32,589 bases of DNA, taken from Brachyspira sp. G79 (GTDB lineage Bacteria > Spirochaetota > Brachyspiria > Brachyspirales > Brachyspiraceae). Positions within the stretch are counted from its first letter, which is position 1; each line of letters starts with the position of its first letter. Shown here one piece after another: positions 16,911 to 26,822 of this stretch. Location of the stretch: contig NZ_JQIU01000008.1 in assembly GCF_002379365.1 (NCBI RefSeq), positions 1,438,662-1,471,250 of the forward strand. Reading direction: 5' to 3'. The notes below the pieces were generated by a model that made no database searches, was not told the DNA's origin, and saw only the letters and a program-made list of their open reading frames with translations. The position numbers and the translations under genes are program-made.

Positions 16911-18419
16911 TTAATAAGTTAAAGAGTATATTAACTTTATACTTCCTTCTGTATCATCAGCACCGATTAAAGAATTATTTATTGTAATCTCAAATTGTTT
17001 AGTTTCGCCCTCTTTTAGAGTAAAGTCCTGAGTATAAGAAACTGTGTTCACCGCTCCACTAACAGAATCAAACACAAAAGCACTTTGAGTTTTATCATAT
17101 CTAAATTTTATCAAAGGTTTTTCTTGTTCTATTAAAACAGTATCATTAACAATCTGAGGTATTTTATAAGTTCTGTCATACATTGTAATAGAAGCATCTA
17201 AATAAAAATAAACTTCATCTGTATCCTCATACTGCACATCAAGAGTATATACTGTAGAAAGTATGCTTTTAGTTTCACCAACATTTACAGTTGTTAAAGA
17301 ATCAAAGAATAAACTAGGCTTATCTTTTGAAGCTATATTATTTAATACAGGAGCGTCATTATTCAAATTATATCCAAGTCTTATATCATAACTAAATCCT
17401 GCATAATTTGTATATTCATCTTTACCAGAAAGTTTATCAACAAAACTTTGAGCACTAATATTTTGTATCTGCAAATCCTGAACCTGCAAAGCTATTTTAT
17501 TTTTTTCCACTATTTTTATAGGCAGATAAGGAGATCGTCCTGCAAAATTATAATCAGCAATTTGTCTAGTTAAATCGGTAGGACTTCCGTCTAGTCTAGG
17601 AGCATAACTGTTGTCATTGGCTATAGACGAAGTACACCAAGGATATATTTCTATAGTACCGTCAGAATGAACTATACCTACTGGGTCGTACTCATAAAAA
17701 TAAGTAAGCCCGTCAACAGCAAATTTCACTTGTTCATTTAAAGTGGCAGTGTCAGCACTAGCCTCCCAGCCGAGTTCCACAGCACCCCATTCCATAGGAG
17801 CAGGTATTCCTACAATAGTTTTCCATTTTGTAGGTATGGCAAAGGCAAATACTAATTTTGAATAACTATCTATAGCTATCAAATAATTATCCGTAGAAAG
17901 CCCTGCAGTACCAGTAAAACGATAAAACCAAAACCTATCAAGTCTATCGCTTTTATTGTATGCACTTGTAGACGAGAAAGTGGGATTCATATTTTTATAC
18001 ATATAATACTTTACTTTATTAACTGTAAATCCTGCAGCCTTAGTATTAGTTCCGTCATAATAATATTCATTTCTCGATAAGTCGCCTGCCTTCCAAGTAT
18101 CATCTTTAATAAGCATGTATGTAGGTTCATTTTTAAGTCCAAAAGAGGCAGCTATTACATATTCTGTATCAAGGTCAAGAGTAAAACCTCTGTAATTAGG
18201 ATCATTCCAAGGTTTGGAAGCGGCATCATAAACAAAAGGATCCTCTGCATCGCTTATAATATCCTCTCCTCCAATATCAGGTTCTTCTGTATCTCCGCCA
18301 GTATTATCCGACCTTGACATCTCCTGATAATAATATAATGGGCTGAAATTTTTTGTGCAGGTATTAAAAAATATTGCCATAAAAAAAATTGATAAAATAA
18401 CAAATATAATATTTTTCAT
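16911..18419 (-). CDS. Divergent paralogue of the modular envelope lipoproteins
   Basis: 502 residues from the ATG at 18419 (MKNIIFVILS...). An ATG at 18434 adds five residues ahead of the signal peptide and has a poorer leader. The signal peptide ends FFNTC, a loose spirochaetal lipobox, followed by PLYYY as in the paralogues. The next ~300 residues are homologous to the N-terminal domain of the proteins at 21278 and 19818. Shared blocks are AASFG, YNKSDRLDRFWFYR, NYLIAIDSYSKLVFAF, FYEYDPVG and GRSPYLP. The C-terminal part (about 340-502) is different and beta-rich (VNVGETKSIL, TYKIPQIV, LKEGETKQFEITI), and lacks the 200-residue modules. It is probably surface- or periplasm-facing. Function unknown. 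Confidence 0.78.
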   Translation of the reverse strand: MKNIIFVILSIFFMAIFFNTCTKNFSPLYYYQEMSRSDNTGGDTEEPDIGGEDIISDAEDPFVYDAASKPWNDPNYRGFTLDLDTEYVIAASFGLKNEPTYMLIKDDTWKAGDLSRNEYYYDGTNTKAAGFTVNKVKYYMYKNMNPTFSSTSAYNKSDRLDRFWFYRFTGTAGLSTDNYLIAIDSYSKLVFAFAIPTKWKTIVGIPAPMEWGAVELGWEASADTATLNEQVKFAVDGLTYFYEYDPVGIVHSDGTIEIYPWCTSSIANDNSYAPRLDGSPTDLTRQIADYNFAGRSPYLPIKIVEKNKIALQVQDLQIQNISAQSFVDKLSGKDEYTNYAGFSYDIRLGYNLNNDAPVLNNIASKDKPSLFFDSLTTVNVGETKSILSTVYTLDVQYEDTDEVYFYLDASITMYDRTYKIPQIVNDTVLIEQEKPLIKFRYDKTQSAFVFDSVSGAVNTVSYTQDFTLKEGETKQFEITINNSLIGADDTEGSIKLIYSLTY

Positions 18420-18454
18420 AATATATATTCTCATAAATAATCTTTATAAATATA

Positions 18455-18482
18455 ATTATACTAATAAAATAAATTAAGTAAA
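18455..18482 (-). promoter_or_regulatory. Promoter of the divergent lipoprotein gene
   Basis: Minus strand TTTACT (18482-18477), 16-nt spacer, TATAAT (18460-18455), just downstream of the previous gene's terminator. Confidence 0.6.
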
Positions 18483-18509
18483 CAATATATAAAAATTATT
18501 TTAAAAAAA

Positions 18510-18544
18510 ATAGGCAGAAGTAAATATTTCATTACCCTGCCTAT
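18510..18544 (-). terminator. Terminator of the small lipoprotein gene
   Basis: ATAGGCAG (18510-18517)/CTGCCTAT (18537-18544) with inner GTAA/TTAC, followed by eight T on the minus strand. It begins 19 nt after the stop. Confidence 0.9.
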
Positions 18545-18562
18545 AAATATAAACTATTATTT

Positions 18563-18943
18563 TTATTTAGTTGAATTATTCAATTCAGCATTTGATATTT
18601 TGTAGCTTGATCCATCTCTCACACTAAAAAGCAAACTTTTATTATTATAAAAATTAAGTATATAGGTGTATGACGGATTATTATTAGACTTAAGAGTAAA
18701 ATTACCAGTAGTTACCGAAGAAGTAATATCAAAAGTCTCGCTATTAATCGTAACACCATTAACGGTATAAACATCAATTTTAAGATTCTGAGTATCCCCG
18801 CTTGAAACCGTTACCCTAATATTCGCATCTTTACTCTCATAAGTACCCGCTCTGTCTTTAAACTTCATTCCAGAACTTCCCAAAGAAGATGTACATGAAA
18901 GTATGAATAAAGATATAAGTAATAAAATAATTTTCTTAAACAT
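18563..18943 (-). CDS. Small lipoprotein
   Basis: 126 residues. The signal peptide MFKKIILLLISLFILSC has a clear lipobox (Cys17), followed by a Ser/Gly linker. The remaining ~95 residues are Ser/Thr/Asn-rich and predicted beta (AGTYESKDANIRVTV, NLKIDVYTVNGVTI, YTYILNFYNNKSLLFSV). This recalls a single small beta-sheet unit like half a module of the neighbouring large lipoproteins, but no clear shared motif supports homology. It has its own promoter and terminator. Function unknown. Confidence 0.75.
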   Translation of the reverse strand: MFKKIILLLISLFILSCTSSLGSSGMKFKDRAGTYESKDANIRVTVSSGDTQNLKIDVYTVNGVTINSETFDITSSVTTGNFTLKSNNNPSYTYILNFYNNKSLLFSVRDGSSYKISNAELNNSTK

Positions 18944-18976
18944 TTTTATTTATCCTAACATTATTTATATTATTGT

Positions 18977-19004
18977 ATTATATAAAAAAAATTGTGTTTG
19001 TAAA
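18977..19004 (-). promoter_or_regulatory. Promoter of the small lipoprotein gene
   Basis: Minus strand TTTACA (19004-18999), 16-nt spacer, TATAAT (18982-18977). Confidence 0.7.
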
Positions 19005-19022
19005 TATAAAAATTTAATAAAA

Positions 19023-19052
19023 AGCGGAGAGATTCTTCAGGTACTCCCCGCT
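19023..19052 (-). terminator. Terminator of the broken lipoprotein gene
   Basis: AGCGGAGAG (19023-19031)/CTCCCCGCT (19044-19052). The one mismatch is G-U in minus-strand RNA; a T run follows. The stem is the same as that of the terminator at 21222. Confidence 0.88.
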
Positions 19053-19073
19053 AATTTTGTTAATTATATATTA

Positions 19074-21188
19074 TTATTTTCTATAACCCTCATCCCCTAA
19101 GAACCACCATTGAATTGTACCTTCTGTAGATGCTGGAGTTGATTTAATTATATCATCATTAGATGTCAATTCCACACCGTAATAATTATCAAACCACATA
19201 TTATTTACTTTAACATAAACAGCCCTATATTTATATTCTGATTCATTATCATATCTATATAATGTCCAAGTATTTCCATTCCATTCTATAGTTTTACCGT
19301 CATCTTTGAATATATAAGTATTGCCATCATATTCAAATGTAGGGTTATCTCTCACTCTATCTAGGAATATAGGACCTTCATCCTTAAATGAAGTAGAACC
19401 AACAGCCTGATCTCCTCTATAAAGAGTTTCATTATCATATTTTATACTAAACTCTATAACAGTACCATCATGTTCATATTCAGCTGATTTATCTCCGCCA
19501 GATTTAAAAGTATAAGATGTAGTCTTAGTTTCACCTCTCCAAACTTGTTCACTAATATTAAGTGTTTGTCCGTTAGGCGTAAACTCATAAGTATATAATG
19601 TTAAACTTTTACCTGTTGCTTGATATTCATTAGGCAAAGGATTAGATAAATCATATTCGCTATAATCTCTAAATTTATATGTTTTACCTTTAACATTTTC
19701 TACAAAGTTACCAGAGGCAATATTTATATTTAAATATCCTTCATGATAGCTTATAGCACTTGTAGCTCCAGCAAAAGGAGAAGAACCCAAAGACCAATAT
19801 AAAGTATCATCTTTATTTCACTTAGTATTAGCTAATTTCAATCCCCAATATGCAAGACTACCTTCTTTATATTCAGCCTTATCCGAATCTTTATATTCGG
19901 CAGAGAATGTGTATGTAGCATCTAACTTACCACTTTTATATTCATATAAAGTATTACCATCTGGACTAAATTTATACTCATAACTTCCATCAGATGCTTT
20001 ATATGTTTTACCTGCTACTCTGTCTATAAATGCAGGACCATTATCCTGATAGTTAAGAATATATTCTCTCGTACCGTCTTTTATTTTATCATAAGTACCA
20101 AGACCTGTTACAGTTAAGTCTCCATACTTTAATGATGTAGCTCCAACAGCCTTGCTGGCATCGCAAGTATATTGTGTAGTAGTTTGACCATCATAGAAAT
20201 GATCTTTTGTTACAGTAAGAGTTTTTCCATCTTCAGAAAACTTATATGTATATAAAGTTAATCTATCTCTAGCTCCATAAGTTTTTCCTTTTAATTGATC
20301 TAATATAGTTTGAGGATCTATGTCATCAATATTAACCATATAGTATGGAGATCGTCCTGCACTACTTGCCCCATCATAACCTGCTATTTCTCGGCTTGCA
20401 TCATGTATCTGAGGGAAATAAGCATTAGCATCTTTAGCCATTTCATTTTTATATTCTGTATATAGAGTTAATGTTAAAGAATCTGTTGAAGTATCATAAG
20501 CCATAAAACCTATAGGATCATATTCATAGAAAGGTCTTTTATCGCCATGAAGTTCTACCGCCTCAAAAGCTGTAGGATATGACTGTCCCATAGTACTTCC
20601 TGTTTTGGTTATTTTACCATAGGCAAATACCAATTTTGAGTATGTATCTACAGCTATCAAATAGTTATTTAAGGGAACAACTACTGCATTACCTACAAGT
20701 CTGTAGAATACAAATCTTTTCATTCTGTCAGACTGATTATATGAATTTTCAGGTGCAATTAATGGGTTTTTATAATCATATCTATAAAAAGTAGCATCGC
20801 TTATGCTGTATCCCTGTGCTGTATTTGCTCCGTCTTTAGCATTATATTTATTTTCTGCTGTTAGTGCATCCGATACTTCCCACTGTGTACCATCTTTAAA
20901 GAATGAATATACAGGTACATTATTGTTATCAAAACTTGCAGCAAATAAAAATTCTAATATTTTACTACCATCAAAATTATAATCAACAGAGTTCCATTGA
21001 CCATTTAAAAATGGGTCTTGGTCAACAGGAACTTCTGACATTCCTAACTCTACATCTGCCGGGGCTGCAGCTTCTGCTTCTGAAGAACTTTTCTTTCCAT
21101 AATAATACCTAGGATTAAAGAAATGCCCGCCGCATGACGTCATAAACATAGATATCATTGCTAAAAATAACAAATAACTCTTTATCAT
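19074..21188 (-). pseudogene. Modular envelope lipoprotein interrupted by one in-frame TGA
   Basis: One continuous frame of 704 codons with a TGA at 19820-19818 (codon 457). Upstream of it lies a 456-residue lipoprotein: signal peptide with lipobox FMTSC, then GGHFFNPRYYYGK, an N-terminal domain to ~288, and one ~170-residue module. Downstream, the same frame continues without shift as linker LYWS...GYLN and a second module (FVENVKGKTYKFRDYSEYD) that best matches module 4 of the 1145-residue paralogue. The intact paralogue aligns across the TGA without gaps (LYWS follows at the same distance). The downstream part has only a TTG start and no ribosome-binding site, so it is unlikely to be made alone. 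The first 456 residues could still be produced as a shortened lipoprotein. Nonsense mutation, recoding or sequencing error are the alternatives. Confidence 0.8.
20493..20717 (-). repeat. Near-identical block shared with the 1145-residue paralogue (copy 1)
   Basis: These 225 bp match 24014-24238 with five substitutions counted by eye (at 20595, 20652, 20661, 20673 and 20690). The flanking coding sequence is clearly more divergent. It encodes the NYLIAVDTYSKLVFAYGK...ELHGDKRPFYEYDPIG region. Confidence 0.8.
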
Positions 21189-21221
21189 ATATTTTCCTTA
21201 AAATAAAATTTTTAACGAAAA

Positions 21222-21252
21222 AAGCGGAGAGTTTTTTGTTTTCTCCCCGCTT
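21222..21252 (-). terminator. Terminator of the 1145-residue lipoprotein gene
   Basis: AAGCGGAGAG (21222-21231)/CTCCCCGCTT (21243-21252), with one G-U pair in minus-strand RNA, then six T. Its end is only about 20 nt from the ribosome-binding site of the next gene, which therefore has no room for an ordinary promoter. Confidence 0.88.
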
Positions 21253-21277
21253 GATTTTTTAATTATAAACTGTTTAC

Positions 21278-24200
21278 TTAGTTACTTCTATTAGCGTCAT
21301 AACCCAAACCAGCATCAGATTCACCAGTACCTAATCCATCTATAAGACCAAGAACTGTACTTGTTTTAATCAAATTATTATCTTCTCTTAAAACAACTCT
21401 ACCATATTTAAAAGCACCATTAGGATTTAAACATTCATATACAGCTGTATAGTTTTGATCTGGTGAATCATCATATCTAGCAAGCTTATAATTATATGTT
21501 TTTACAGGGTTAAATAAGCCGCCTGTACCATATTTTAATGTAAATTCCGAACCATCATCATTAAATTCATAACTTACATCATCTTTAACAAATCTAGCAC
21601 CTCTAACCCTATCTGGGAATAATGGATCATAATCATTAAATGTAGTTTCTCCAACCTTTGTAGAAACAGAACCATCTAGCTTATAAAGTATATCTGGGCT
21701 GCCTTGTACAGATACTTTTATATCTCCATTACTTTGAGAAGTATATGTACCCATAGATTCACTTTCTTCTTTAAGAGTATATACTATTGTTACCGTATTA
21801 CCTCTCCAAGTTTCCTCTTTATAAGTTAAAGTATCACCTTCAGCATCAAATGAATAACTATAAAGTATCAAACTCTTACCTGTAGGTTTATATCCTTCTG
21901 GTAACGGACTAGATGTATCATACTCACTGTAATCTCTAAACTTATAAGTTTTAGATTTTACATTATCTGTAAATTTAGGTGCTACATATACATGAGCTGT
22001 TATAGAGCCTTCAGTAATCTGTCCGTCTTTAATACCGTTATAATCAGACAATGTTATTTCAAAATCTATACCATCAAGTTTATTATTATCATAATATCCT
22101 GTATCACCATTATGCTCTAGATACTTATATGGGTCAGAATTTTGTTTTTGTCCATTGACATAGAAATCAAAATAATCTCCGTTAGCACTGAATACATATT
22201 TTTTAGTGCCGTCATCTGTTGTATATGTTTTTCCAGCTAGTCTTGACATAAACTCAAATGAGCTATCATCATAGTTTTTATAACCTACAATAACATTATC
22301 CATATATAATTCTTCATCAGAATTTTTAATAGTAAATGTTTTATTTTGTTTTGGTGTCATCTGCTCATACTGTCCATTAAACTGCTTATCTATAGCTGTG
22401 TAGTTATAGTACATGTTTGAACTTGTTTCTTTACCAGTCTGAGTATTAGTAACAACATGTGTTATATAGTTACCAGCTTTAGAGAATGTATAATAATTCA
22501 TAAGAACAATATTTTCTTTATCTCTCATTCTATAAGTTACATCAGCAACTACTTCCATAAATCTGTCTACACTTTGACCGTCTCTACCTGTAATATAAGC
22601 GTCATATCCGTAAGCTGCAGAGTTAAGTATATGGTTAGCATCAGCCAAAGCACCTGTTGACATCTGTACCATAGTGCCGTTAGCACCAAGTCTTAATGCC
22701 CAGTATTTGAATATTAATGCTCCGTCTTCTATATATGCAGCTTTACTATAATCTGCCTGAGAACTTCCGTATTTATCTATAGTATAAGTAGCTGTTTTAC
22801 CGCTTGGATAAGTATATGTAAGGTTTCCGCTTCCGTCAAATGCATATTTATAACTACCGTCCATAGAGTAGTATGTAGTATTTACAACAACATCTAAGAA
22901 GTAAGGACCTTTATCTCTAAATCCAAGTTCTGCTGCAGGTTCATCATTTTTCCATAAATCTTCACCAGCACTTTCTAGAGTAAATGTATATTCCACACCG
23001 TCAAGGCTATATACTGCACTTTTACCATTATCTTTTACTAAAGTGTAAGTTAAAGAAATAGGATCTTTTTTAGCTGATTCTTCTGTATAAGTAATAGTGT
23101 TGCCGTCTCCGCTGAATCTATATTCAAATGTTGTTAAACTTCTTCCGTCTCCAGGAGTACCGTCATAATCTCTGAATGCATATACTTTATTAGCAACTTC
23201 ATCAGTAAAGAAATCTATTACAGATTCATCAACATTTAAATATCCAGGGCTAGAACTTACTCCGCTGCTTGATGTAAGGCCTGGAGTATCTCCTGCACCT
23301 GATGACCAATATAATACACCGTCTTTAGTATTACCATCATCAGCTATTCTCAAACCCCAGTATGCAAATGAACCAGATCTTTCTTCTTTATAGATTGCTC
23401 TGTCGCTTGCATCCTGCTGAACAAATGCATAATATCTTACAAATTTTCCATTTTCATAATATTCTATAGTTTTACCGTCTATAGTAAATTTATATGAATA
23501 GCTTTTATCTTTTGCTTCAAATACTTTTCCTCTTACTCTGTATATAAACTCAGGACCTGGATCAACATAGTCTAATTCTGCATCCACATTATTAATACTA
23601 TCTCTTACTTTAGCATAGCTGTCTAATCCAGTGATTGTTATATCGCCGTATTTTAATGAAGTAGCACCGCTAACTTCTGTAAATGTATATGTATTTTTTG
23701 ATGTTTGACCGTCATAGAAATGATCTTTTGTTATAGTTACTTGTTTTCCGTCACTAGAGAATACATAAGTATAAAGATTTAAGCCTGATCTTATGGCATA
23801 AGTTTTGCCTTTGAACTCATCTAATATAGTTGAAGGGTCTATATCTGCCACATTTACATAATAGTAAGGAGAGAGACCTGCACTTTCTTTATCTTCATAA
23901 CCTGCTACTTTTCTTGTAGAGTCATGGATTTTTGGGAAAAATGCATTAGCATCAACTGCCATTTCTTCTTGATATTCTCTATATAGAGTTAATGTCATTG
24001 CATCTTTAGCTTCATCATAAGCCATAAAACCTATAGGATCATATTCATAGAAAGGTCTTTTATCGCCATGAAGTTCTACCGCCTCAAAAGCTGTAGGATA
24101 TGACTGTCCCATAGTGCTTCCTGTTTTGGTTATTTTACCATAGGCAAATACCAATTTTGAGTATGTATCTACCGCTATCAAGTAGTTATTTAAAGGAACA

Positions 24201-24715
24201 ACTACTGCATCACCTACAAGTCTGTAGAATACAAATCTCTGCATTCTTTCAGATTTATTATATTCGCTTTCTGGAGCAACCAAAGGGTTTTTAGCATCAT
24301 ATCTGTAAAAAACAGCACTAGTTATACTATATCCCTGTGCTTTATTAGCTCCGTCTTTAGCATTATATTTTTTCTCTGCTGTTGCTGCATCTGAAACGGC
24401 CCACTGTGTACCGTCTTTAAAGAATGTATACACTGGAACATTTTTTCCGTCAAAACTTGCAGCAAATAAAAAGTCTAATATTTTATTACCGTCAAATTTA
24501 TAATCAATGGAGTTCCATTCTCCTACTTTAAACGGATCCTGATCTTCTGGAACATCTGATCCAGTTCCTACAGAGACATCCCCTGCAGGAGCTGTCTCTT
24601 CTGCTTCTGAAGAACTGCTCTTTCCATAATAATATCTAGGGTTAAAGAAGTGCCCTCCGCAGGACATCATAAACATCGATACTATTACCAAAAATAATAA
24701 ATAGCTCTTTTTCAT
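21278..24715 (-). CDS. Large modular envelope lipoprotein
   Basis: 1145 residues. The signal peptide has lipobox FMMSC (Cys19), then GGHFFNPRYYYGK and a Ser/Glu/Ala linker. Residues ~58-297 are an N-terminal domain shared with the two paralogues. Then follow four tandem ~190-residue modules at about 298-475, 499-690, 717-905 and 914-1120. Each has an A half (F-x-x-x-V-x-x-K-x-Y-x-x-R-D, L-x-x-Y-x-Y-x-F-S-x-D-G) and a B half (F-x-D-x-G/D-P-x-F-x-D/Y-R-V-R-G, S-Y-x-Y-x-F-x-x-D-G, YWGLR in modules 1 and 2). The halves look like small beta-barrels or sheets, and the repeats are diverged. AAGGAA lies 6 nt before the ATG. It follows the barrel-protein gene by 28 nt and is probably co-transcribed and exported to the outer membrane. 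No known family is recognised; adhesion or display is conjecture. Confidence 0.85.
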   Translation of the reverse strand: MKKSYLLFLVIVSMFMMSCGGHFFNPRYYYGKSSSSEAEETAPAGDVSVGTGSDVPEDQDPFKVGEWNSIDYKFDGNKILDFLFAASFDGKNVPVYTFFKDGTQWAVSDAATAEKKYNAKDGANKAQGYSITSAVFYRYDAKNPLVAPESEYNKSERMQRFVFYRLVGDAVVVPLNNYLIAVDTYSKLVFAYGKITKTGSTMGQSYPTAFEAVELHGDKRPFYEYDPIGFMAYDEAKDAMTLTLYREYQEEMAVDANAFFPKIHDSTRKVAGYEDKESAGLSPYYYVNVADIDPSTILDEFKGKTYAIRSGLNLYTYVFSSDGKQVTITKDHFYDGQTSKNTYTFTEVSGATSLKYGDITITGLDSYAKVRDSINNVDAELDYVDPGPEFIYRVRGKVFEAKDKSYSYKFTIDGKTIEYYENGKFVRYYAFVQQDASDRAIYKEERSGSFAYWGLRIADDGNTKDGVLYWSSGAGDTPGLTSSSGVSSSPGYLNVDESVIDFFTDEVANKVYAFRDYDGTPGDGRSLTTFEYRFSGDGNTITYTEESAKKDPISLTYTLVKDNGKSAVYSLDGVEYTFTLESAGEDLWKNDEPAAELGFRDKGPYFLDVVVNTTYYSMDGSYKYAFDGSGNLTYTYPSGKTATYTIDKYGSSQADYSKAAYIEDGALIFKYWALRLGANGTMVQMSTGALADANHILNSAAYGYDAYITGRDGQSVDRFMEVVADVTYRMRDKENIVLMNYYTFSKAGNYITHVVTNTQTGKETSSNMYYNYTAIDKQFNGQYEQMTPKQNKTFTIKNSDEELYMDNVIVGYKNYDDSSFEFMSRLAGKTYTTDDGTKKYVFSANGDYFDFYVNGQKQNSDPYKYLEHNGDTGYYDNNKLDGIDFEITLSDYNGIKDGQITEGSITAHVYVAPKFTDNVKSKTYKFRDYSEYDTSSPLPEGYKPTGKSLILYSYSFDAEGDTLTYKEETWRGNTVTIVYTLKEESESMGTYTSQSNGDIKVSVQGSPDILYKLDGSVSTKVGETTFNDYDPLFPDRVRGARFVKDDVSYEFNDDGSEFTLKYGTGGLFNPVKTYNYKLARYDDSPDQNYTAVYECLNPNGAFKYGRVVLREDNNLIKTSTVLGLIDGLGTGESDAGLGYDANRSN
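21356..23824 (-). repeat. Four tandem ~190-residue coding modules
   Basis: The part of the large lipoprotein gene encoding modules 1-4 (residues 298-1120). Repeats are recognisable at protein level by recurring DG-turn and RD/RVRG motifs, but are diverged in DNA. Confidence 0.7.
24014..24238 (-). repeat. Near-identical block shared with the broken paralogue (copy 2)
   Basis: Counterpart of 20493-20717, about 98% identical by eye, at the same position in the N-terminal domain, with a direct offset of 3521 bp. Confidence 0.8.
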
Positions 24716-24743
24716 ACCATTTCCTTAATTATTTTTATTAAAA

Positions 24744-25568
24744 TTATCCTTTAAATGCCAAACCTAATGTTATACCAAAGTCTAATGAGTTTATATAATA
24801 AGATTTCAAAGGTGTTGTAGGATCAAATGCAGGTTTTTCTAATTTTTCCAAACCAGAATTCATTAAACTCAATAAACTGTCTGGCATAGTAATATATTTT
24901 GGAGAATATACATTAAATCTCGTATAAGCACCCAATATAACTTCAACTCTGTCATTTACAGGCTGATTATATTCTATCATAAATTTTATACTAAACATTA
25001 CAGGATTCATATTTTTGATCATAAAATCAGTTACTATTATCTCTCCTATTTCAGGGAAACCAGGAATATCACTGTCAAAATAAGCCAAATATTCTGGAGA
25101 TGTATCTGCTATCAATTTACCACCTATATGTAGTCCTAATGCCAATCTGCTATTTAAGAAATAAGCTTTAGTACCAACCCCAAAACTTATTACAGGTGTA
25201 TAAGAAACATTTATATAAGCATTTGCTGTTACTCCATCTATAGTATTACCTGATATCTGACCTGCAAATCCGCTTCCTACACCTAAAGAACCAAATACGC
25301 TCATACCGCTGAATTTAGCAGGATCTAATCCGTTAAACCATTTTTCAGAACCAAATAAATAACCAAGTTCAGCCTCTCCGTCTATAGTGTATCCTACAGA
25401 ACCTTTCATATATGAAGCACCTATCTGATCCAAATCTGACTGACTTATTGAAGGCATTGTAGCAGAGCCGTTAAAGTTAGCCTTTAATGCCCATATAAAA
25501 CCTTCATCAAAACCATACGCCGCTGAAAAACTTGCTGCCATAAAAATGTAAATAAATATTTTTTTCAT
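24744..25568 (-). CDS. Outer-membrane beta-barrel protein (predicted)
   Basis: 274 residues. A signal peptide MKKIFIYIFMAASFSAAYGF without lipobox precedes alternating hydrophobic/polar strands rich in Gly and aromatic residues (SVGYTIDGEAELGYLFG, NAYINVSYTPVISFGVGTKAYF, ALGLHIGGKLIA, VEVILGAYTRFNVYSP). The end, LDFGITLGLAFKG, is strand-like, as in barrels recognised by BamA, although it does not finish on a canonical terminal Phe. GGGAG precedes the ATG. It is the first gene of the envelope array and sits 28 nt upstream of the large lipoprotein, suggesting that the two act together at the outer membrane. A specific family was not recognised. Confidence 0.72.
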   Translation of the reverse strand: MKKIFIYIFMAASFSAAYGFDEGFIWALKANFNGSATMPSISQSDLDQIGASYMKGSVGYTIDGEAELGYLFGSEKWFNGLDPAKFSGMSVFGSLGVGSGFAGQISGNTIDGVTANAYINVSYTPVISFGVGTKAYFLNSRLALGLHIGGKLIADTSPEYLAYFDSDIPGFPEIGEIIVTDFMIKNMNPVMFSIKFMIEYNQPVNDRVEVILGAYTRFNVYSPKYITMPDSLLSLMNSGLEKLEKPAFDPTTPLKSYYINSLDFGITLGLAFKG

Positions 25569-25820: not shown

Positions 25821-26822
25821 TTATGGAAGTATATTTTTTATATTATCCCTATACTCTTTAATTGTTTTGTAAGGAGTTTTTAATTGAAAGTTAACTATAT
25901 TGCTGTACCAATTAAAATAATCAAATCTATTTACTTCAGACATTATAGAATGTTTATCATCACTGACATCATATTTAGGAAACATCATACCAATAGTTTG
26001 GATAATATAATAAGCAAACATATTTTTTATTGTTTCACAGTCAGCATTAGACTGCAGAAATGTATATGTACTTATAACAGCTATAGATTTACAAGGCTTT
26101 ATATTATTATTTTCAAGTACGAGCCTGTCTACAAAACCTCCGTCTGCAATAGACTTTGCACTCATTGATAAATAATTAGCAGTTAATGGCATATTTACTA
26201 CTACTATAGAAGAATCTTTAAACTCTCCTGCAATTATTCTCCAATATAATGCAGTATAAATCATAAACTTGCTACCATCTAATAACTGATTTCTATTTTT
26301 TACAGGTGTATTCCAAACATTAAGTATACTTTCTACATATGAGGGTGCTATATTTTTAGCTATTATATCTAAAGGAACGGCGTATTCATATCCAAATAAT
26401 TTTTTTATATTAGCCCTAGTTTCATTGGAAAGCGAGTATAATATATAATGTTGAAGTTTTTTATTATCAATATTTTTTATATCTATAAAATCTCTTTTAA
26501 ATATATGAGCATTATCATTTATAATTCTTCTATTGGCTATATAAAAATCGTCATATTCCATACCATTTTTAAGATTATATTTTATTTTATATCCTAAAAT
26601 ATCATAAGTAAGTTTTGAAAGATCATCATCAAAAATATCAAGGAAATCACTTGGAGAAAATGCATTTATTGCTGCGTCTTCTATATAAGTAATATTCACA
26701 GTATAAGTTTTTTCTTTATTAAGCGGTTCTGTACTATTTTTACATGATAAAAAGAGCAATAAGAACAAAAATATAAAAAACAAGTATTTAATATTAAATG
26801 TATTATTATTGAGGTATTTCAC
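25821..26822 (-). CDS. Lipoprotein of unknown function, possible degenerate metallopeptidase
   Basis: 333 residues from a GTG that overlaps the end of the LptA-like gene by 17 nt, so translation is probably coupled. Residues 1-27 form a long signal peptide ending LFLSC (lipobox). The body is mixed alpha/beta. Near residues 268-295, FAYYIIQTIGMMFPKYD...HSIMSE resembles the HExxHxxGxxxH...IM segment of zinc metallopeptidases (archaemetzincin/metzincin style) with the catalytic His and Glu replaced. This is a visual resemblance only. Operon position behind kdsC-lptC-lptA hints at an envelope role. Confidence 0.7.
   Translation of the reverse strand: MKYLNNNTFNIKYLFFIFLFLLLFLSCKNSTEPLNKEKTYTVNITYIEDAAINAFSPSDFLDIFDDDLSKLTYDILGYKIKYNLKNGMEYDDFYIANRRIINDNAHIFKRDFIDIKNIDNKKLQHYILYSLSNETRANIKKLFGYEYAVPLDIIAKNIAPSYVESILNVWNTPVKNRNQLLDGSKFMIYTALYWRIIAGEFKDSSIVVVNMPLTANYLSMSAKSIADGGFVDRLVLENNNIKPCKSIAVISTYTFLQSNADCETIKNMFAYYIIQTIGMMFPKYDVSDDKHSIMSEVNRFDYFNWYSNIVNFQLKTPYKTIKEYRDNIKNILP

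Follow-up and report, generated by a model that had tools for sequence, protein, structure and literature searches.

In a stretch of Brachyspira DNA of 32,589 nucleotides (the window; contig C8 of a 3.29-Mb genome), a minus-strand gene for a small predicted outer-membrane beta-barrel protein is followed by lipoprotein genes whose products share one N-terminal domain (the N-domain) and differ in what they carry behind it. We find that the barrel and N-domain genes keep together across Spirochaetota, that the tails behind the N-domain form two classes, one of them built of modules of distinct positional types, and that the arrays bear the marks of exchange between species; support is good for the architecture, the linkage and the exchange. 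Our preferred interpretation, to which we give slightly less than even chances, is a two-part outer-membrane system in which the barrel docks or exports lipoproteins that share the constant domain, with their variable passengers turned outward. The constant parts would be a barrel of ~270 residues and the N-domain, also of ~270 residues, which would physically dock with it. The barrel would insert in the outer membrane, hold the N-domain lipoproteins and probably help to export them; the passengers, either zero to four pairs of lipocalin-like repeats or an unrelated second class of tail, may stand outside the cell as ligand-binding, antigenically variable surfaces. The variation would come from tandem duplication, in-frame loss or gain of modules, local conversion among paralogues, truncation by nonsense mutation, and array segments exchanged between species.

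The linkage of barrel and lipoprotein is far stronger than the window alone could reveal. Among 392 Spirochaetota genomes, the N-domain is found in 51 and the barrel in 50, with both in 50; the barrel never occurs without the N-domain (0/392), and a single genome (G078) has the N-domain without the barrel. The 50 genomes with the pair comprise 26 of Brachyspira, three of the same family and 21 of a family (f19) that probably represents the treponemes. From the barrel loci fetched from all 50 genomes we obtain 52 barrel open reading frames (ORFs), of which 50, all but those of L089 and L096, are followed on the same strand by an N-domain gene at most 300 bp downstream; second barrel copies (G017, G021) and weak matches of the 392-genome barrel search stand outside these loci. 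The order is kept in at least three Brachyspira neighbourhoods and in treponemes. In a tree of 49 of the 52 barrels (fragments L091, L095 and L101 excluded), three f19 genomes (G090, G305, G344) join Brachyspira (100/100) before other genera of the Brachyspiraceae do. A tree that constrains the Brachyspiraceae together is rejected (p-AU 0.000135) in an approximately unbiased (AU) test that was run post hoc, with the identities already seen and with long branches in play. By this after-the-fact test, the barrel appears to have passed laterally between Brachyspira and treponemes.

Within the window the minus-strand gene order is truA, kdsC, lptC, lptA, a 333-residue lipoprotein, the barrel gene (BARREL), P4, P2, lp126, P0, radC and a helix-turn-helix gene. 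The features of the array, all on the minus strand, are as follows.

24744..25568, minus: BARREL, 274-residue predicted outer-membrane beta-barrel protein, first gene of the array
21278..24715, minus: P4, 1145-residue lipoprotein with N-domain and four modules; starts 28 bp after BARREL
23846..24715, minus: P4 signal peptide with lipobox and N-domain (residues 1-290)
23222..23839, minus: P4 module M1, two half-repeats (from alignment, module tree and AlphaFold2)
22577..23221, minus: P4 module M2 (from alignment and module tree)
21980..22576, minus: P4 module M3 (from alignment and module tree)
21281..21979, minus: P4 module M4 (from alignment and module tree), 64% identical to B. innocens
21219..21250, minus: terminator-like hairpin after P4 (fold z -3.9)
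19818..21188, minus: P2 as read, 456-residue lipoprotein with N-domain and module M1
19818..19820, minus: in-frame TGA that interrupts P2; copies in other genomes are open
19074..19790, minus: remainder of P2, a 238-residue ORF with an M4-type module and without a signal of its own
18830..20351, minus: tract of 1,522 bp recently exchanged between species, one mismatch to G010, flanks ~90%
19019..19051, minus: terminator-like hairpin behind P2, which matches that behind P4
18563..18943, minus: lp126, 126-residue lipoprotein that usually closes the array on its 3' side
16911..18434, minus: P0, 507-residue lipoprotein with N-domain and the other passenger class, zero modules

A sequence-only reading of this DNA had placed the genes correctly and had described an array of large lipoproteins headed by an outer-membrane barrel gene. 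The large lipoproteins and the position of the barrel gene stand, the small fourth lipoprotein lp126 had been overlooked, and the barrel nature of the first gene product is indicated by sequence pattern only. None of P4, P2, P0, lp126 and the barrel exceeds a curated cut-off in Pfam or NCBIfam. As for neighbours, the 333-residue lipoprotein encoded at 25821-26822, with lptA on one side and the barrel gene on the other, adjoins the barrel in most of the Brachyspira loci linked to lpt genes and has no match in Pfam or NCBIfam, and a 168-residue ORF at 303-809 has repeats that look BspA/DUF285-like by eye. A named relative used below is Brachyspira innocens (L035), with 82% identity over the best P4 segment.

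The barrel protein bears a Sec-type signal without a lipobox, as judged by eye, and at 274 residues in all, signal included, it shows no Pfam family at E<=1 and no TPR match. The evidence for a barrel comes from alternating hydrophobicity, which in the window's protein stands at z 3.9 against shuffled sequences (2.0-3.7 in three relatives, -2.6 to 1.9 in six controls), and from a conserved C-terminus of the pattern ..SLDFG.xLGLxF... One strong copy is present in each of the 26 Brachyspira genomes, at 63-91% identity to that of the window (2/26 also carry a second copy at 49%), and the gene is far steadier across Brachyspira than the lipoproteins.

We now turn to the lipoproteins themselves. 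An N-terminal domain common to the three large ones had been proposed and is borne out (P4 against P0, BLAST E 7.6e-36; P4 against P2, 55% over 1-684). The module counts of four, two and none agree with ours for P4 and P0, and for P2 the count of two is right only if an in-frame TGA is ignored: a half-module profile finds eight halves in P4, four in P2 (two in the 456-residue ORF and two in the 238-residue ORF) and none in P0. The module is indeed of two parts, at a size of 199-233 residues including linkers, rather than the ~190 first given, and consists of two homologous repeats of ~95 residues each. Homology of the two halves, a and b, is seen among the window's own six modules (hhalign probability 94.2%) and again between 53 and 53 halves (96.7%, P 4.7e-10; reversed control 2.4%). 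The N-domain was also compared with the half-modules, and homology of the two was rejected (hhalign probability 0.1%).

To see how the modules are distributed, we searched a set of 825 ORFs taken from the window together with 43 loci in 26 genomes, one genome per species as throughout. The N-domain is found in 94 ORFs and half-modules in 35, as scored with a half-module profile that was built from modules cut by alignment from P4 and P2 and then trained on its own matches. Orthologues differ in module number, with eight halves in L035 and L036, six in L038, L043 and L044, and four in L039-L042 and L046. A tree of 53 modules, which omits two ORFs of L039 that each hold a single half, resolves four positional types, with 12 rows of M1, six of M2, six of M3 and 29 of M4-type; the last come from four-module (3), two-module (6) and single-module (20) proteins. 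By this tree a four-module protein is M1-M2-M3-M4, a three-module protein M1-M2-M3, a two-module protein M1 plus M4, and a single module is M4-like, with the caution that, where M2 and M3 of four-module proteins join those of three-module proteins, the tree carries a flag for long branches that meet. The earlier suggestion that in P2 a linker resembling the one that precedes module 2 is joined to a module-4-like body agrees with the alignment, and the tree places the second module of P2 in the module-4 clade. Gain or loss of modules in frame is likewise supported, because modules of positional type recur in the tree across 19 genomes.

As read, P2 ends after its first module at the TGA at 19818-19820, leaving the last module as an ORF without a signal. 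Five genomes (G010, G024, G012, G013, G005) hold intact two-module orthologues, and the frame is open in all five. Readthrough or recoding of this stop was considered and rejected as a first choice, since the orthologues are uninterrupted and one of them matches the surrounding tract at every other base; the stop may also be an assembly error. Other Brachyspira genomes, too, hold lipoprotein genes of this family that are broken or frameshifted (L039:12180-13975, L047, L051, L056, L061), which suggests rapid birth and death of these genes.

What stands behind the N-domain can also be classified without reference to modules. Starting from 130 N-domain ORFs of at least 80 bits, we took the 105 tails of at least 80 residues and obtained exactly two homology clusters (single linkage at E 1e-4, a procedure that could chain). 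The 62 tails without half-modules (46 from Brachyspira, 16 from others) include that of P0, and the 43 with half-modules (31 and 12) include that of P4. Three long treponeme tails of the class without half-modules were scanned: that of L086 passes the Pfam cut-off for Ig_3. The L091 tail passes the cut-off for the InlB B-repeat (Flg_new_2) in four stretches, the match of the L085 tail to Ig_3 is sub-threshold only, and a Pfam scan of L088 (half-module class) and L082 gave no match.

Comparison between genomes suggests how the arrays change. Across 18830-20351, the window and G010 differ at one base in 1,522 bp, inside the stop codon, and the surroundings are ~90% identical, the mark of a recent exchange between species. 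When all pairs of different genomes among 40 sequences are compared (40 of 44; the orphan N-domain loci L069, L070, L076 and L077 and the short loci L001-L034 lie outside the set), the three longest near-identical tracts, among the 60 longest listed, all fall in arrays: 2,934 bp (G002/G007), 1,522 bp (window/G010) and 791 bp (G002/G007). The G002/G007 array is 83-97% identical from ~7000 to ~10000 and above 99% from there to 13700 (~3.7 kb), with flanks at 73-93%; against the nearer relative G020, G002 has flanks mostly at 91-99% and most of the array at 60-80%. Inside the window, P4 and P2 share an exact run of 102 bp in the N-domain; three 60-bp steps reach 94-98% identity and the others 65-91%. 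The matching terminator-like hairpins just after P4 and P2, a pattern found nowhere else in the genome, look as after a tandem duplication. The sequence-only reading had named invariance across strains as a result that would speak against it; we see the opposite between species (one genome each), where the lipoproteins vary and are laterally exchanged.

The ratio of nonsynonymous to synonymous change (dN/dS) is 0.04 for lptA (against B. innocens), 0.11-0.13 for the barrel (0.13 against B. innocens) and 0.22-0.64 for the lipoproteins; against B. innocens it is 0.24 for the N-domain, 0.29 for M1, 0.27 for M2, 0.64 for M3 and 0.58 for M4. It never exceeds 1, and we therefore take it as relaxed or faster change, not as positive selection.

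In the window a lipobox stands at the expected place in all four (SC in P4, P2 and lp126, TC in P0), and among the 121 N-domain ORFs of at least 100 bits a loose lipobox pattern is matched by 112; among the nine misses are ORFs that begin within the gene and at least two whose C lies beyond the reach of the pattern, while L070 has none. An AlphaFold2 model of P4 residues 19-500 from 20 sequences reaches a mean predicted local distance difference test score (pLDDT) of 71, with eight strands in the first half-module (block pLDDT 78-95); the second half-module has blocks at 71-90, falling to 41-59 toward its end. In VIA-align, where Z below 8 may reflect merely a common arrangement, the 19-500 model aligned mainly over residues 275-370. 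The first half matches Treponema pallidum Tp0435 best (Z 9.5, root-mean-square deviation 2.4 over 82 residues, 11% identity), then a Shewanella lipoprotein (8.2), TbpB (up to 6.7), fHbp (up to 5.8) and beta-lactoglobulin (4.9-5.0); the second half matches 1ei5 (8.2) and potempin E (6.4). The first half is thus predicted to resemble an eight-stranded lipocalin-like or small lipoprotein barrel, a resemblance that need not mean homology, and the predicted fold of the second half is less certain. The top rows of a Foldseek search with the two-domain model were long, poor superpositions and were disregarded. By sequence, the PDB gave matches below threshold only: the N-domain reached E 0.047 at best, P4 19-500 0.13 and the barrel 0.63.

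The N-domain also occurs outside these arrays. A second locus without a barrel gene (L069:6765-10147, L076:3343-5726) encodes a passenger-less N-domain lipoprotein of ~280 residues, one or two small lp126-like lipoproteins and a divergent N-domain protein of ~255 residues. A 229-residue N-domain protein without a lipobox lies at L070:7929-8618, and matches of similar size (about 226-280 residues) occur in most other Brachyspira genomes.

A role of the barrel in exporting the lipoproteins to the surface, or in anchoring them there, is suggested by the linkage, the fold resemblance, the variability and a likeness to Slam. Several points weigh against it. AlphaFold2 gives the barrel a pLDDT of 32 (from just four sequences, all within 84-90% identity of the query apart from the query itself), and the topology is therefore drawn from the alternation of hydrophobicity and from the pattern at the C-terminus. 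The N-domain of some treponeme proteins lies in their interior (residues ~360-590 of ~1150) and so is not always a membrane-proximal anchor, and structural comparison gave it no clear match. Lipocalin-like lipoproteins of spirochaetes can be periplasmic, and the many lipoprotein immunogens of T. pallidum are described as such (PMC7521688). We found no published localisation traceable to any member.

Among other explanations, the one we weigh most, though we think it unlikely, takes the barrel for an uptake channel or small porin; the lipoproteins, at the surface or as its lid, would bind ligands in their lipocalin-like repeats and pass them on to it, with a variability that mirrors diet or host ligands. 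It would account for a barrel that stays constant while its possible binding partners are several, and for repeats that resemble a ligand-binding fold; the barrel, however, is too short for a TonB-dependent transporter and lacks a Pfam match, and the Ig- and InlB-type tails of two treponeme proteins suit adhesion better. Less probable still is a periplasmic complex, with the lipoproteins facing the periplasm and the barrel as their outer-membrane receptor, in a structural role near lipooligosaccharide transport. Neighbouring lptA, lptC and kdsC genes, which the window shares with many further loci of Brachyspira, speak for such a complex, but the pair persists without lpt genes (L038, L042, L043, L055, L056, L066, L067) and in treponemes, and the lipoproteins vary and are exchanged where the adjoining lpt genes are conserved. 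It is very improbable that we are looking at plain expansion of a gene family beside an unrelated conserved gene, with the order due to descent alone: the ancestral order is common to most Brachyspira loci, yet it is also held in two families and several neighbourhoods, and none of the 392 genomes has the barrel without the N-domain.

The docking and export system that we prefer would matter for two reasons. The route by which spirochaete lipoproteins reach the surface is unsettled, and a barrel with a constant domain offers a concrete gene pair; for LptD in Borrelia, conflicting results are reported in the introduction of PMC13078400, and a search of the window's own genome for LptD (PF04453) gave no match, with a control that matched only 2/14. 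The exchanged modular passengers are moreover an uncharacterised candidate for a variable antigen in gut spirochaetes of animals and people. In the literature searched we recognised no description of the locus, whose members may sit under unmapped accession numbers, and it is unnamed in the available parts of PMC4955376, PMC5415613, PMC3163572, PMC8116685 and PMC6930189. How the pair compares with described systems can be put as follows.

Like the SusCD-type uptake pairs, the array encodes a predicted barrel and a putatively cognate lipoprotein side by side. SusC is a TonB-dependent transporter of ~1000 residues; the barrel here, with 274 residues and no Pfam match, does not look like a large barrel with a plug domain. 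Tp0435, the best structural match of the first half-module, is a small stand-alone protein, unlike a tandem repeat behind a common N-domain. BPP43_05035 of B. pilosicoli, like the array members a Brachyspira lipoprotein, is a surface adhesin shown on intact cells (PMC11444514); it differs in being a six-bladed beta-propeller (PDB 7ZAO) of a separate family. A link to it was rejected on the different fold, and a PDB profile search with the P4 N-domain and modules missed it. A further analogy is Slam, or type XI secretion (SlipAM, DUF560), where, as is predicted here, the gene of an outer-membrane protein adjoins that of a lipoprotein. Every lipoprotein predicted to depend on Slam has a single eight-stranded barrel domain or two of them (PMC5449769), and the best structural neighbours of our half-module include the TbpB and fHbp barrels (Z 5-6.7), although the P0 class is without half-modules. 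Unlike Slam, the 274-residue protein has no SlipAM (PF04575) match and no room for a TPR domain plus a 14-strand barrel, and the constant part of the lipoproteins, found here in spirochaetes, is the N-domain rather than a barrel domain; a genome-wide PF04575 search gave zero matches, but so did its control. By the tests run, the pair is not a Slam member. It is conceivable, if rather doubtful, that it represents a display system of its own kind, specific to spirochaetes, in which the barrel exports or anchors any cognate N-domain lipoprotein, leaving the passenger free to be swapped, while Brachyspira and treponemes trade cassettes and vary repeat number to change their surface.

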